Of a stretch of DNA of 64,000 nucleotides, positions 26,531 to 32,120 are shown piece by piece. Each line of letters begins with the position of its first letter. Positions within the stretch are counted from its first letter, which is position 1. Below the pieces are notes generated by a model, which made no database searches, had not been told where the DNA came from, and saw only the letters and a program-made list of their open reading frames with translations. The stretch comes from an uncultured bacterium (lineage in GTDB: Bacteria > Armatimonadota > UBA5829), in assembly GCA_938074205.1 (NCBI GenBank), contig CALJES010000006.1, positions 248,001-312,000 on the forward strand. Direction: 5' to 3'. The position numbers were made by a program, and so were the translations under genes.

Positions 26531-29500
26531 CTAGTATTTTCGCACGTCCTCAATCGATCTGACGTAAATTATCCTCTGGCCGGGCACAAAGTAGGTCTTC
26601 GCACCACTCCCCGCATCAAACGTGTAACGGAAGTCCAGACCCACAACGCCAGTAACCTCGACAAAATCGCCCTCTGCAATTTCGGCAGCACCCGGGTCGA
26701 ACAGGACCTTTATGCCGGGAACGGTTTTCTGAGTATCGGAGAAGTCCCAGTACTTGGTTACCGCCCCACTGCCGTCGTCAACAGTGAACCAGTATCTGAA
26801 TCCGACGGCCATTGACCAAAGATCATCAATCGGAGTCGCGGCTACCTTACCGGCTATCCGGATGAGGAGACCGACGTTATTCAGACCATAAGCCGGATCT
26901 GTAGCTGGTTGAGGTCCGAGCTGCTTGCCACCAACGTTGCGCACTGTCATACCGAGCGGCTTTACATCGGGATTACCCGAAGATACTACCTCGACCTCCG
27001 CGTTGACTATACGCGCCTCTCCGTCATACGCCGTCAGCATGCCTTTCACAGTGACCTTATCGCCTACGGACGGCAATGTAGGAGGATTGCTCACCCGTAT
27101 ACCACCCGTGCGGTCCTCGTCCTCCATGTAGAAGAAGCTTTCGGCGCCGATGGTATCTACATAAGTGACGATCTTCGGAACATCAGTCTCCACGAAGGAA
27201 CCGATCCTGTCGCCCTTCATCGCGCCGATAGACTGCGGTCCGTGAGTGGCTGGGACGTTCGCAGCATACAACGAATACACACCGGTTGTCCTGTTGCAAG
27301 TCAGCGCGTACATCTTGCCGTTGTGATAGTGGAGAGCTGCGATCTGGGCACCCGCTTCGGGCATTCCCTCATCGTACAGATTGCCCGCGACGTCTCTAGC
27401 TATGACGTGCCCCAAGTCAGGGTTTGTATAGTACTGGTCCGCTCCCCAACCCATCCAAGCGGAGCCGTCTGCGGGGTTAATTGCAAGTCCCGTTGCCCAG
27501 TACGTTCCTCCACGCCACCAATTGCTCCCGTACTGTGCCAGATGATCCAAGCGGTTCGGATCTACGCCGTTCATATGATAAGCAGCGATCGAGCCGACTC
27601 TGTTATTGGTGCTGTCGCCCCACGGCTTGCTCGGATCGATATCCCACAGACACGTATTTCCAAATGTGCCTGTGAAGACAGACATCACATTGGTGCGTCG
27701 AACTAGCAGATGCGGACCGTAGGTTCCGTCGAAATTGAAATCCCAACTGGGCGACGCAGTTGAACCGGGAGTCTGATCACCTCGTCCGAGACGCACCCAG
27801 TCAAAGATCACGGTCACCGAACCTTGAGAAACGGTAGGTACGCCTCCAAGTCTGTCGTCGCCTGTAGCTCCAAAGTTCATCCAAGAGCTTGTCGCCAACG
27901 GTGCAGCGCTTGTCGAAGTCCCAGGATCAGTATCGCCTAGAACCTGCGCATATTGCACGCCGTCCCAGTTGCAGATAACTTTTCTGGGAACACCAGCAGG
28001 GGTGGTCTCGGCATACAGGTAGCAAGTATGCGGCACTCCTAGCTGTAGATCACCCAATATGCCGAACTGGACAAAGGTGTTTTTGTCCTTCTGGACACCC
28101 CACGCCCACTTCGGCGTGCCGTTGTCGTCTACGATACCAATAACTGGTCTGCCCGAATAGTTCCCGGCCGGTATAGCAGGACAGTTCATTAAGAACCAGC
28201 AGTTGTATGCATCAGAGAACTCGGTCACAACAAACCTGGCAGCTAGAGTAGCCTGTTTGATCGTACCAGCGACGGAATCAGTGTAGTTGTAGTTGTACAG
28301 GTAGGCCGAAAAAGAGCCCGTCGTAGGAGCCGTCTTTGCCATCCTGATTCCTTTGTTGCCTTCCTCGCCAGGAAAGTCGACAATCCCCCAAGTGCCGGAC
28401 TGGTTCAACCGATAGATATTCCAATATGCGCTGGAGTTCTGCGACCACGGAGCAAGCCAGAGTTTGTTGCGCTGTGGATCCCAAGCCCGCGCAGTAGCAG
28501 TCTGACGGCCCCAGCCAACATCCACCGTGTTTACCCACTGGCTGCCGTTCCACATATAACCCCAGTCTCGGCGGAAATCCCAGTGTATTGGATCCGCTCC
28601 CCAGGCGGAACCACCGGTTCGACCAACTGAGAATACGTCTCCACCTCGAGGGCTAATCCCTGCCCACGTTAGGAGAAACATACCGTCCACGTGGTTCCAA
28701 CCATTGTTGATTGTCGGCAGACCGTAGAGCGGGTTCGGATCGAGGATGTTGCCGCCGGGACACTCTATTGTCGGACGCAGGTCTAAGCCGCCGGGAGACC
28801 GTTCTATTTCCCCAGTCGCCACATTGTAGCGGAAGAAGAAGTCGATGCGATGGAATGACGAAGTTGTGAAGTACACATTTCCATCACTGCCCACGTCCAT
28901 ACCAGAGAGGTAGTGCATATAGTCGTCGTTGTCAGGGTCGGCATAGCCGTTATAAGGAGTTGTGCACACATCGACTGCCGCAAGGCGACCCCAGTTGAAG
29001 TCGTTGGGCAGATAGCTGCAGTCGCAGACGTTGTCCAGCAAGCTCTCCGACGGTTGATAGCCTCTACCATAACCGATCCAGTCCCAGGTTATTTGGGTAT
29101 TCGTTCCACCGGGACCTTGAGCCGTAGCACATCCGAGCTCTGCATAGCCGGTTCCCCCGCGAAGATTGGGATCACCTAACCAAGAGGCACTATATACCTC
29201 GGACACGTTTCCATCTGTGCCAAACGCCAGTTTGACTGTCGGATTAGCGGGGTCGGCGTTAACGTAAAGGTAGGCTTCATACCAGACACCCGTCTGTACT
29301 TCGCCAAGATCCAGGATGTCGACCGCCATGTTATTCCACTTGGTAAGAACGAAGTGGGGCGTGCCACCGATGAGCTTTATCGAAAGCGCCGGAGTCGGCG
29401 AGCTGACCGGGATGATATTGGGTGAAGTTAGGGAATCAGTCTTTGCAGAAAGCTGCATCAAGTTCGCCTGCTCAGTCCCGCTAAGCGTCAGTTGCTCGAT

Positions 29501-30139
29501 GCGAAATCTGGCTCCGATAGTCTGCTCACGGTCGGCGACATACCGCCACCACTCGTTATACTTCGCCGTTAAGTCCTTCTGCAATACACCCCAGTTATCG
29601 TCACCCAAGCTCACAATAGTATTGGACTGTCCCTGGAAATCAGCTTGCCAAATGCCGCCGGTAGGCTTGACCTCGTATATCACTTCCACCGTGCCGTCCG
29701 AATTGAAACGCAGTATGCGTTCAGGCAAACCTTCAGTGGAGTACTGGCGAGCGTTGAACTCGCCGCTGTATACCCACTGCCAAAGCTGCTTCCAATTCTG
29801 GATACCGTAGACCTTCCCGTCACCCGCCGTTTTCAACTGGGTAACGCCGCCAGGAAGACCCAGAGCATTAAGATCCACGTTAATCACGGATCCATTCGTC
29901 TTGAAGATCGTGATGCCACCTGAGCGACCCCTATTGTTGCCGTTATTTGCGGTAACATATATGTTACCTGATCCATCAACGGCAATACTGTTGAAAACCG
30001 GTCTCCAGCGGTCCATTATGAGCGCTGGGTCGGTCACAAAACCCGAGATTCCAATCTTGCTCCATACGGCTGCACAGGCAGAAGATATAGTACAGCCGAC
30101 CAGAACAATGGTCACAAGAAATGCGAACACACCCTTCAC
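26531..30139 (-). CDS. Large secreted multidomain protein (propeller, duplicated sandwich inserts, C-terminal OB-like domain)
   Basis: A 1202-residue exported protein of unknown role. A signal sequence (about 1-23) with a possible lipobox-like V-G-C inside is followed by NHL/propeller-like strands (V-D-G-S-G-N-I-Y-V). Two blocks of about 170 residues (about 190-360 and 600-770) look like concanavalin/LamG-type sandwiches; they end alike, W-D-W-I-G-Y-G-R-G-Y-Q and F-D-W-V-R-L-G-R-G-D-Q, which suggests duplication. The last 170 residues resemble OB-fold repeats seen at the ends of Armatimonadota and Planctomycetota secreted proteins. It may bind carbohydrate or surface polymer. GTG 30137-30139 follows GGGAGAG. 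The gene has its own promoter, a structured leader and a terminator. Confidence 0.75.
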   Translation of the reverse strand: MKGVFAFLVTIVLVGCTISSACAAVWSKIGISGFVTDPALIMDRWRPVFNSIAVDGSGNIYVTANNGNNRGRSGGITIFKTNGSVINVDLNALGLPGGVTQLKTAGDGKVYGIQNWKQLWQWVYSGEFNARQYSTEGLPERILRFNSDGTVEVIYEVKPTGGIWQADFQGQSNTIVSLGDDNWGVLQKDLTAKYNEWWRYVADREQTIGARFRIEQLTLSGTEQANLMQLSAKTDSLTSPNIIPVSSPTPALSIKLIGGTPHFVLTKWNNMAVDILDLGEVQTGVWYEAYLYVNADPANPTVKLAFGTDGNVSEVYSASWLGDPNLRGGTGYAELGCATAQGPGGTNTQITWDWIGYGRGYQPSESLLDNVCDCSYLPNDFNWGRLAAVDVCTTPYNGYADPDNDDYMHYLSGMDVGSDGNVYFTTSSFHRIDFFFRYNVATGEIERSPGGLDLRPTIECPGGNILDPNPLYGLPTINNGWNHVDGMFLLTWAGISPRGGDVFSVGRTGGSAWGADPIHWDFRRDWGYMWNGSQWVNTVDVGWGRQTATARAWDPQRNKLWLAPWSQNSSAYWNIYRLNQSGTWGIVDFPGEEGNKGIRMAKTAPTTGSFSAYLYNYNYTDSVAGTIKQATLAARFVVTEFSDAYNCWFLMNCPAIPAGNYSGRPVIGIVDDNGTPKWAWGVQKDKNTFVQFGILGDLQLGVPHTCYLYAETTPAGVPRKVICNWDGVQYAQVLGDTDPGTSTSAAPLATSSWMNFGATGDDRLGGVPTVSQGSVTVIFDWVRLGRGDQTPGSTASPSWDFNFDGTYGPHLLVRRTNVMSVFTGTFGNTCLWDIDPSKPWGDSTNNRVGSIAAYHMNGVDPNRLDHLAQYGSNWWRGGTYWATGLAINPADGSAWMGWGADQYYTNPDLGHVIARDVAGNLYDEGMPEAGAQIAALHYHNGKMYALTCNRTTGVYSLYAANVPATHGPQSIGAMKGDRIGSFVETDVPKIVTYVDTIGAESFFYMEDEDRTGGIRVSNPPTLPSVGDKVTVKGMLTAYDGEARIVNAEVEVVSSGNPDVKPLGMTVRNVGGKQLGPQPATDPAYGLNNVGLLIRIAGKVAATPIDDLWSMAVGFRYWFTVDDGSGAVTKYWDFSDTQKTVPGIKVLFDPGAAEIAEGDFVEVTGVVGLDFRYTFDAGSGAKTYFVPGQRIIYVRSIEDVRKY

Positions 30140-30281
30140 TTGTTCATCTCTCCCTTCGCTTGCGTCTGCCTAAGGCGACTAGCATTGTTCCCAGTAGCCG
30201 CGCCACTACCGACTTCGATTCTTCTTCCGGCCACTACGATTTTCGTTTTGATTAATCGGTGCGGCAGCTTGGCTACTGGTT
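30140..30281 (-). promoter_or_regulatory. Structured RNA leader upstream of the 1202-residue secreted protein
   Basis: The predicted transcript starts near 30281. Its first bases, CCAGUAGCC (complement of 30271-30279), pair perfectly over 9 bp with GGCUACUGG (complement of 30191-30199). Inside, GCCGC (30261-30265) pairs with GUGGC (30202-30206), and ACCGAUU (30254-30260) with AGUCGGU (30208-30214), broken only by a one-base bulge. The helices are thus nested and coaxial, enclosing a 39-nt apical region. Further 3', CCUU can pair with AAGG next to the ribosome-binding site. The shape is like a riboswitch or protein-binding leader; I match it to no known class. Confidence 0.6.
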
Positions 30282-30287
30282 ATGTGC

Positions 30288-30316
30288 GTAATACCACAAG
30301 ATGCCAACTCTGTCAA
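30288..30316 (-). promoter_or_regulatory. Promoter of the 1202-residue secreted protein gene
   Basis: On the minus strand TTGACA (30311-30316) and TATTAC (30288-30293) are 17 bp apart. Start is predicted at about 30281, leaving a leader of about 142 nt. Confidence 0.8.
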
Positions 30317-30368: not shown

Positions 30369-32120
30369 CTAGGAGCGATTATTAGGTAGTGTGAACCAGA
30401 AGGTGCTGCCTTTACCAGGTTCGCTTTCGATCCCTATACGGCCACCGTGAGCCTCAACGGCCAGCTTACAGAAGGTGAGTCCGAGACCTGTTGAGTACTT
30501 CTGACGATTCTGTCGCGACTCTACCTGGCCAAATTTCTCGAATATCTTCTCGTGGTACTCTTTCGGCACGCCAGGACCGTTGTCGATCACGCATACTTTG
30601 ACTTCTCCGTCTCGTTTTTCCGCGTTCAACTCTATCTCACCACCCGGCGAAGGCGTGAACTTCAACGCATTGGACAGAAGGTTTTGAATTACCCGACCAA
30701 TTAGGTGTCGGTCGGCAGTTACCATTATGGGTTCCTCCGGAAAATTCATAACTACGCTTCGGTCCTCTCTCAAAGGTTCCAGCTTTGCCGCTACTTCTTT
30801 ACACAGCTCGGCGACATCGAATTGCGACAGGTCGAGCTGCATCTCACCATGCTCCATCTTGCTCACATCCAATAGGGAACTTATCATCTCCATAAGGTTC
30901 TGAGTCTCCCCCATAACAATCGAGAGGTATTCCTTACCCTCTTTCGATAGAGACTCCGACTCGAACTCCCGCAGCATCTCGAGATATCCATAAATGCTAG
31001 TTAGTGGCGTTCGCATATCGTGAACTATCATGTGAGTCAGGCTGTCGCGGAGTGATTCAAGCTCACGCAACTTCTTGTAGCTCTCTTCAATTTTGCGACT
31101 GTGAGCCTCGAGCTTGAGAGCGTCTTCGCGCAGCTCAGCTGTGATTCTGGCGATTGAGTCGCCTGCTTCTTGGAGTCGGTCGATCATATGGTTTTGGACG
31201 CGAGCGAGCCTACCTATTTCGTCATTTGTGTTGAAACTCAGATGTCGAGCTCGTACATCGAACTGCTCATACAGATTGCCGTCCGCAATGCTGGCAGCCA
31301 CACCTGCTAAAGCATCTATGTCAGCTGCGACCATCTCTGTTTGCTTTTCTATGGCGGATACTCTCGATGTAATACGTTTCGCAATCATTACAGACGAAAC
31401 GATTGTAAGCAACCACAAAGCCATTAGACTAACAATTATTAGTTCAAGGTACAAGAATCCTCGTCGAGTATAACGCTCCGCAGCATACGATGTTCGCTTT
31501 TCGAGAATGGCGTAGAAGTCGTTTATGGGCTTCATTGCCTTCGCCCTAAGTTGCTCGTAAGTGCGATCGTGAACCATTGCGATCGCCATTGCCTTGTTTG
31601 GTTTACCACGTTTGCGGAAGTGCCCTGTCCCGTCATCGTACAAACCTACCAAGGCGTGCATTGCTGCGTTTTCTCGCTTGGCTAGGGCATCTGACAACCG
31701 CTGCGCCTCGCTCAGTTTATGAAACTCGGCATCACTGAAACCCAATCGACTCATGCGCGCTTGCAATGAGAGCGCCTGCCCTGGCCTGGTCTTTACGGGA
31801 ATATCGGCCGCTATGAAATCCCAATATATGCGATTGTAGTGCTCCGGTCTTCGTTTCTTGCCTTTACGAATTGCGAGCACCTCATAATACATCCGCTTGT
31901 ATTTGGGATCGCCGGTGACAACGTAGCTGCGAACAAATCTGGTCATGTCGTCTGAGCTCTGGCGCAATTCGTCTGCCAGTAGATATGACTCAAAACGTAT
32001 CCTTTGGCTTTTCGCAAGTTTGGCTTCGTTAACGTAGAGCAGCGCGGCCAAAACTCCTATTGCAATAAGCAGTACGAAAAACAGTCCATAGACCAATTGA
32101 AAGAATCTGCGAATAGTCAT
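30369..32120 (-). CDS. Membrane-bound sensor histidine kinase
   Basis: A 583-residue transmitter. Two membrane helices (about 8-29 and 222-247) flank a sensor region of about 190 residues, probably helical, of unknown ligand. A HAMP linker, a coiled coil (about 315-355), the HisKA dimerisation helix with phospho-acceptor His367 (I-V-H-D-M-R-T-P-L-T) and a HATPase domain with N box (N-L-L-S-N-A-L-K-F-T), D-N-G-P-G-V-P and G-L-G-L-T-F follow. No response regulator is adjacent, so it is an orphan kinase. It lies upstream of, and in the same direction as, the 1202-residue protein, but that gene has its own promoter. Confidence 0.93.
   Translation of the reverse strand: MTIRRFFQLVYGLFFVLLIAIGVLAALLYVNEAKLAKSQRIRFESYLLADELRQSSDDMTRFVRSYVVTGDPKYKRMYYEVLAIRKGKKRRPEHYNRIYWDFIAADIPVKTRPGQALSLQARMSRLGFSDAEFHKLSEAQRLSDALAKRENAAMHALVGLYDDGTGHFRKRGKPNKAMAIAMVHDRTYEQLRAKAMKPINDFYAILEKRTSYAAERYTRRGFLYLELIIVSLMALWLLTIVSSVMIAKRITSRVSAIEKQTEMVAADIDALAGVAASIADGNLYEQFDVRARHLSFNTNDEIGRLARVQNHMIDRLQEAGDSIARITAELREDALKLEAHSRKIEESYKKLRELESLRDSLTHMIVHDMRTPLTSIYGYLEMLREFESESLSKEGKEYLSIVMGETQNLMEMISSLLDVSKMEHGEMQLDLSQFDVAELCKEVAAKLEPLREDRSVVMNFPEEPIMVTADRHLIGRVIQNLLSNALKFTPSPGGEIELNAEKRDGEVKVCVIDNGPGVPKEYHEKIFEKFGQVESRQNRQKYSTGLGLTFCKLAVEAHGGRIGIESEPGKGSTFWFTLPNNRS

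Follow-up and report, generated by a model that had tools for sequence, protein, structure and literature searches.

What the RNA leader in front of a gene for a large exported protein does is the question raised by this locus, which lies in the window (the whole 64-kb stretch of DNA that was analysed) between a histidine-kinase gene (30369-32120) and the 1202-residue exported-protein gene (26531-30139). For this protein we found no family in Pfam, and shorter paralogues of it were found in G000 and G002. Its C-terminal region (residues ~960-1170), for which neither Pfam nor PDB gave a match, is common to many otherwise different exported proteins across the class, with about 10 matches per genome.

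The first-pass annotation had described a TTGACA-17-TATTAC promoter followed by a 142-nt leader, three nested pairings of 9, 5 and 7 bp forming one long hairpin and a second small pairing beside the ribosome-binding site, and had read the whole as a cis-regulatory leader, either a riboswitch or a leader bound by a protein. All the elements of this description were borne out, each of them at its coordinates (Table 1); the transcription start, at ~30281, was derived from the promoter alone.

Table 1. Features of the leader and of its gene, all the leader features being read on the minus strand (coordinates of the whole 64-kb stretch)
Feature	Coordinates	Strand	Basis or remark
1202-aa exported protein, GTG start at 30139	26531..30139	(-)	signal-peptide-like N terminus
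-35 hexamer TTGACA	30311..30316	(-)	sequence; kept at same spacing in G002 orthologue
-10 hexamer TATTAC, TGG just 5' (extended -10), 17-nt spacer	30288..30293	(-)	sequence
Structured 5' leader of the 1202-aa exported-protein gene, 142 nt	about 30140..30281	(-)	fold
P1 5' arm CCAGUAGCC	30271..30279	(-)	fold, G002 comparison
P1 3' arm GGCUACUGG	30191..30199	(-)	fold, G002 comparison
P2 5' arm GCCGC, partner GUGGC 30206-30202	30261..30265	(-)	fold
P2 3' arm GUGGC	30202..30206	(-)	fold
P3 5' arm ACCGAUU	30254..30260	(-)	fold; ACCAGC/GUUGGU in G002
P3 3' arm AGUCGGU	30208..30214	(-)	fold
Candidate sRNA-binding site UCGUAGUGGCCGG, apical loop region, 13 nt	30227..30239	(-)	conservation, recurrence, duplex energy
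Small hairpin 5' of the ribosome-binding site	30158..30183	(-)	fold
Shine-Dalgarno-like AAGGGAGAG	30148..30156	(-)	sequence; mostly unpaired in predicted ensemble

The 142-nt leader folds at -46.5 kcal/mol, versus -35.2 +/- 3.3 for 200 dinucleotide shuffles (z = -3.40, with one of the 200 shuffles equally good), and it is very probably a real structured RNA. As the first-pass annotation had supposed, no known riboswitch was matched: the Rfam scan of the window and of the leader gave nothing at the gathering score and only implausible snoRNA matches (E 4.6-7.4).

Two short reading frames were noticed in the same region. At the ribosome-binding site there is a three-codon frame, AUG AAC AAG UGA (window 30136-30147, minus strand), and at the same place 5' of the start of the G002 orthologue (L039) there is another one, AUG UCA AAA UGA; in both species the stop of the frame overlaps the start codon of the main gene. 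A longer leader-peptide reading, running from a GTG at ~30233 to a TGA at the start codon, was judged by eye and dropped, the G002 frame ending elsewhere and the encoded sequence being poorly conserved.

Conservation was evaluated in the one orthologous leader. The sole orthologue among the genomes compared is in the congeneric Armatimonadota bacterium isolate A05DMB-I-24 (G002:C40, corresponding to L039/L040); a scan of the genome contigs with the protein returned the same G002 orthologue and one spurious partial match, and no DNA similarity to the leader rose above noise outside the genus. The orthologue is 92% identical in protein, 80% in coding DNA and 52% at third codon positions, which implies that unconstrained sequence has largely drifted. 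The G002 leader keeps the promoter hexamers, their spacing and the nested hairpin, and at the -10 region TGTGGTATTAC is the same as in the window. The 9 bp of P1 are 100% paired in both the window and G002, with U-A replaced by C-G and C-G replaced by U-G, and the pairing of P3 is kept in G002 (ACCAGC/GUUGGU, read by hand) via a G-C to A-U replacement. A lack of compensatory changes in homologous leaders had been named as an argument against the structure; paired changes are present in P1 and P3 of G002, and as covariation between two sequences they are not statistically strong (229 out of 500 shuffles do as well). At the place equivalent to the small hairpin near the ribosome-binding site G002 also has a small hairpin, but a different one. 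The longest unchanged block between the two leaders is UCGUAGUGGCCGG, in the apical region; its identity in a leader as diverged as that of G002 indicates a site conserved beyond its surroundings.

The motif of this loop recurs. Paralogue leaders in G000 and G002 carry the same motif, or near variants of it, in 5'UTRs placed after similar promoters. The exact 12-mer CGTAGTGGCCGG was compared to its reversed control, with counts of 5:0 in G000, 5:2 in G001 and 5:0 in G002, and all five copies in the genome of the window are intergenic. Collecting by hand, with coding-sequence matches set aside as chance, we obtained about 33 UTR sites belonging to about 15 gene families in the genus, family and order of the window, the sites within a lineage being partly related by gene duplication. 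Most of them, in 5' or 3' UTRs beside exported-protein genes, occupy the loop of a hairpin or the stretch between two hairpins, and wherever orientation could be judged the motif has the sense of the neighbouring mRNA. We distinguished two kinds of site: (a) strong hairpins with the motif in a large loop (the window, G000:C8/G002:C55/G001:C153, G001:C223, G003:C200, G011:C116 and G017:C304), and (b) stretches with a hairpin on one side and a terminator-like hairpin on the other, 10-70 nt past the stop codon of a gene for an exported protein (G011, G013 and G017). When the search was made degenerate (CC to YY), the extra matches were nearly all coding and were taken as chance, with the exception of G000:C8:149095. 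One further site, G002:C133, fits poorly and has an internal mismatch.

Some of these loci deserve a separate description. At L136 (~1400-1590, G001:C153), L091 (G000:C8:152029) and L097 (G002:C55) a hairpin GAGACUGUCUCG..CGAGACAGUCUC holds the motif in its loop and converges on a glycine-rich gene (RRM-like by eye), and in G000 and G001 a terminator-like hairpin comes next. Since no exported-protein gene precedes the hairpin in G001:C153, it may be there a free-standing decoy or sponge RNA. L195 (G000:C8:149095) and L091 belong to one exported-protein gene, which apparently has a variant site in the 5'UTR and a perfect site in a 3' hairpin. At L160 (G001:C251:5461), just 5' of a uS8-like gene, the motif is largely paired in a GC-rich stem, and its presence may be due to chance.

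This distribution allows the earlier interpretation to be divided. The part concerning a structured cis-acting leader of an exported-protein gene stands, with a promoter, a hairpin showing paired changes and a conserved loop; the part concerning a riboswitch or a protein-bound leader is unsupported, because what is conserved is a 13-nt loop, the stems vary and the same loop is found in unrelated 5' and 3' UTR hairpins. As to riboswitches, the leader resembles those of Rfam in being a structured 5' leader; unlike them, it matched no Rfam aptamer family and has no aptamer-like core conserved beyond the loop and tied to one metabolic or transport function, the loop being all that otherwise unlike hairpins share.

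The complement of the motif has a distribution of its own. In each genome the sole antisense locus is the 3'UTR of a conserved exported-protein gene, hereafter gene A (~230-290 aa, ending in ..NLALIIP.. or similar), and the motif is antisense to the preceding gene A at G000:C17:54475-54568 (outside the window) and in G001, G002, G003 and G015. On the gene A strand the 3'UTR consists, in this order, of an A-rich single strand, AUCCGGCCACUACGAAA, a short hairpin and a GC-rich hairpin, so that a predicted single-stranded seed, UCCGGCCACUACGAAA, precedes the two hairpins. Gene A homologues across the class have the same layout in G004, G005, G008, G009, G011, G013 and G016, and a diverged form of it in G007. 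We aligned 12 copies by MAFFT: the seed core UCCGGCCAC is invariant in 12 out of 12, and in the two hairpins, whose structure was predicted from the same alignment, 8 of the 13 pairs are changed on both sides versus 3.6 in shuffles, none of 500 shuffles being as high. U-tracts are clear in G004, G005, G008, G009 and G013, and weak or absent in G000 and G002.

A covariance model found one strong copy per genome in 12 genomes (E from 1e-19 to 2e-9), followed by noise and by matches to these loci on the opposite strand; it was scored on its own building sequences, and what it adds is that no further strong copy turned up. The Rfam scan of six gene A 3'UTR loci gave no family. A further locus from the model search, G017:C286, was rejected as an sRNA, being another sense site. 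In the genomes compared, which are fragmented metagenome assemblies, G017 has several sites and no sRNA detected, and G004, G008, G015 and G016 have the sRNA locus and no further exact site.

By its anatomy the gene A 3'UTR is a candidate 3'-end-derived small RNA. Trans-acting sRNAs of this origin are described in Enterobacteria (CpxQ, SdhX, MalH, FarS and OppZ, reviewed in PMC9438474). Like them, the candidate is located past the stop codon of a coding gene and has a single-stranded seed followed by hairpins and an intrinsic terminator, and, as far as can be read from sequence, it would have one seed for several mRNAs and would couple functionally related genes. Unlike them, it is from the phylum Armatimonadota, with no sequence relation found, and its target sites are found in the loops of hairpins and, in 3'UTRs, ahead of terminators, not over ribosome-binding sites.

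We also evaluated how the putative seed would pair. The window site and the G000 seed (G000:C17:54568-54475) form 13 contiguous pairs, with a predicted duplex energy of -29.3 kcal/mol and predicted opening costs in G000 of ~4.1 kcal/mol for the site and 3.4 kcal/mol for the seed; the corresponding values for G002 are -36.5, 3.9 and 1.2 kcal/mol. With opening costs as low as these, the loop can pair without the melting of P1 to P3. A cofold of the leader and the sRNA lacks this pairing in G000, because the algorithm excludes pairs between a loop under a closed stem and a linear strand, and we turned to the opening energies in its place. Since the seed complement was the query by which most sites were found, duplex energies are not independent evidence; they follow the lineage pattern and are given as an illustration only, some shuffled sites reaching similar values.

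The seed differs among lineages. It is CUACGAA in the genus of the window, G003 and G015, CUAUGAA (genus g3) in G004, G008, G011 and G013, and, in g4, CACAAGAAAC in G005 and CACAGAAAC in G009. Across the lineages with CUACGAA, CUAUGAA and CACAGAAA, the recurring sites differ in step with the seed. The complement of the CUAUGAA form, CATAGTGGCCGGA, is present in five intergenic places besides the sRNA (four in G011 and one in G013), and in no intergenic place in the genus of the window, G003, G015 or G017. The complement of the G009 seed form, GTTTCTGTGGCCGGAAAC, is present 5' of two exported-protein genes in G009 and in one intergenic place in G005, the matches of this search pattern in other genomes being coding sequence. 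Counted by hand, intergenic sites with CGTAG and CATAG are in a ratio of 8:0 in the genomes with the CUACGAA seed and 3:5 in those with the CUAUGAA seed (Fisher one-sided ~0.013, also calculated by hand and treating related sites as independent). The three g3 sites that retain CGTAG pair with their own seed only through a G-U, and the G005 site fits the G009 seed better than its own seed, which carries an extra A. Two sites found by homology and not by pattern, G000:C4 and G002:C157, have C to U differences that retain G-U pairs with the seed. These comparisons suggest, with moderate strength, that seed and sites change together; the strength is moderate since there are few sites per lineage and some of them are related by gene duplication.

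On these grounds we consider the leader as a receptor hairpin, that is, the probable target of a trans-acting base-pairing antisense sRNA (probability of about 0.7). This reading is preferred because the exact complement of the loop is the seed of the candidate sRNA and both change together. It is the same two facts that make it unlikely that a protein or a ligand binds the conserved loop CGUAGUGGCCGG and that the gene A complement is unrelated: RNA sites bound by proteins typically have a variable stem and a fixed loop, and the many UTR sites would suit such a protein, but a protein specific for single strands leaves unexplained both the invariant complement with covarying hairpins in 12 genomes and the joint change of seed and sites, and neither a riboswitch-like conserved internal architecture nor an Rfam match is there to sustain the binding. 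We regard as very unlikely that a DNA-binding protein recognises the motif as double-stranded DNA and that its place in UTRs is due to chance. Such a site could be read from either strand, and a change in the protein would likewise shift it across lineages; however, the sites are in transcribed regions, either past promoters or ahead of terminators, most of them within or next to hairpins and all of them sense, and the antisense copy is limited to one locus with the anatomy of an sRNA, none of which a DNA site needs. Least probable of all is that the motifs are remnants of GTAG-tagged REP palindromes (PMC3733652) with no regulatory role and that the complementary copy is a reverse insertion. 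The sites share with GTAG REPs a GTAG next to one GC-rich half of a palindrome, an intergenic position and often a place 3' of genes, and the palindromes GTAGTGGCCGG..CCGGCCA in G017, G009, G055 and G042 resemble such REPs. In the genus of the window, however, the sites, including the window site, have no second palindrome half, are as few as about six per genome, occupy orthologous places in diverged sequence and are biased to one strand; the copy at gene A is conserved in three families as a single structured RNA.

REP-like palindromes GTAGTGGCCGGGATCTGTCCCGGCCA and inverted repeats TTCGTAGTGGCCGG..CCGGCCACTACGAA were seen at L101, L108, L145, L149, L152 and L153 (G017), L155-L157 (G009), L075 (G042) and L077 (G055), sometimes with several per contig. 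The palindromic copies in G017, G009, G055 and G042 may be the evolutionary source of the sites.

For the antisense-target reading we propose the following mechanism. Transcription would start next to P1 and the mRNA would open with the long hairpin, whose apical region would present UCGUAGUGGCCGG. The sRNA, released from the gene A 3'UTR, would consist of the seed UCCGGCCACUACGAAA, the short hairpin and the GC-rich terminator-like hairpin, and its seed would pair with the loop in the window and with equivalent sites, in loops or between hairpins, of other exported-protein mRNAs, and would couple the expression of these mRNAs to that of gene A. The hairpin, its motif, the recurrence of the motif in sense orientation only, a complementary seed next to covarying hairpins and the lineage-matched changes are read in the DNA itself; from them we infer that the sRNA would be transcribed or released, that it would pair in the cell and that the pairing would have an outcome.

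As to this outcome, our guess is that the pairing more likely affects the stability or processing of the mRNA than directly blocks ribosome binding. A direct block seems unlikely because the site is ~90 nt 5' of the start codon and the Shine-Dalgarno sequence is mostly open in the predicted ensemble; the position of sites in 5'-terminal hairpins and just before terminators suggests an effect on nuclease access and hence on stability. The ompA-type leaders are 5'-terminal stabilising stem-loops. The window leader is similar to them in having a long hairpin within a few nt of the presumed 5' end and far from the ribosome-binding site, and differs from them in that its conserved loop matches the seed of an sRNA.

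Most of what is known of trans-acting base-pairing sRNAs comes from cultured Proteobacteria and Firmicutes, and our literature search found none described in Armatimonadota. The candidate sRNA is most likely novel as a family, of a mechanism class that is already known (PMC9438474). Comparative sequence analysis alone yields a candidate sRNA family together with its seed, a group of target sites for it and a lineage-specific co-change of seed and targets. More tentatively, there may be an order-wide network in Armatimonadota, in which one gene A-derived sRNA would control exported-protein mRNAs via 5' and 3' receptor hairpins, seed and receptors would co-evolve, and the whole would possibly be born from GTAG palindromic repeats supplying both strands. 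Such a network is directly testable, and it would offer a case for studying the origin of sRNA regulons and asking if dispersed palindromes are able to give rise to them.
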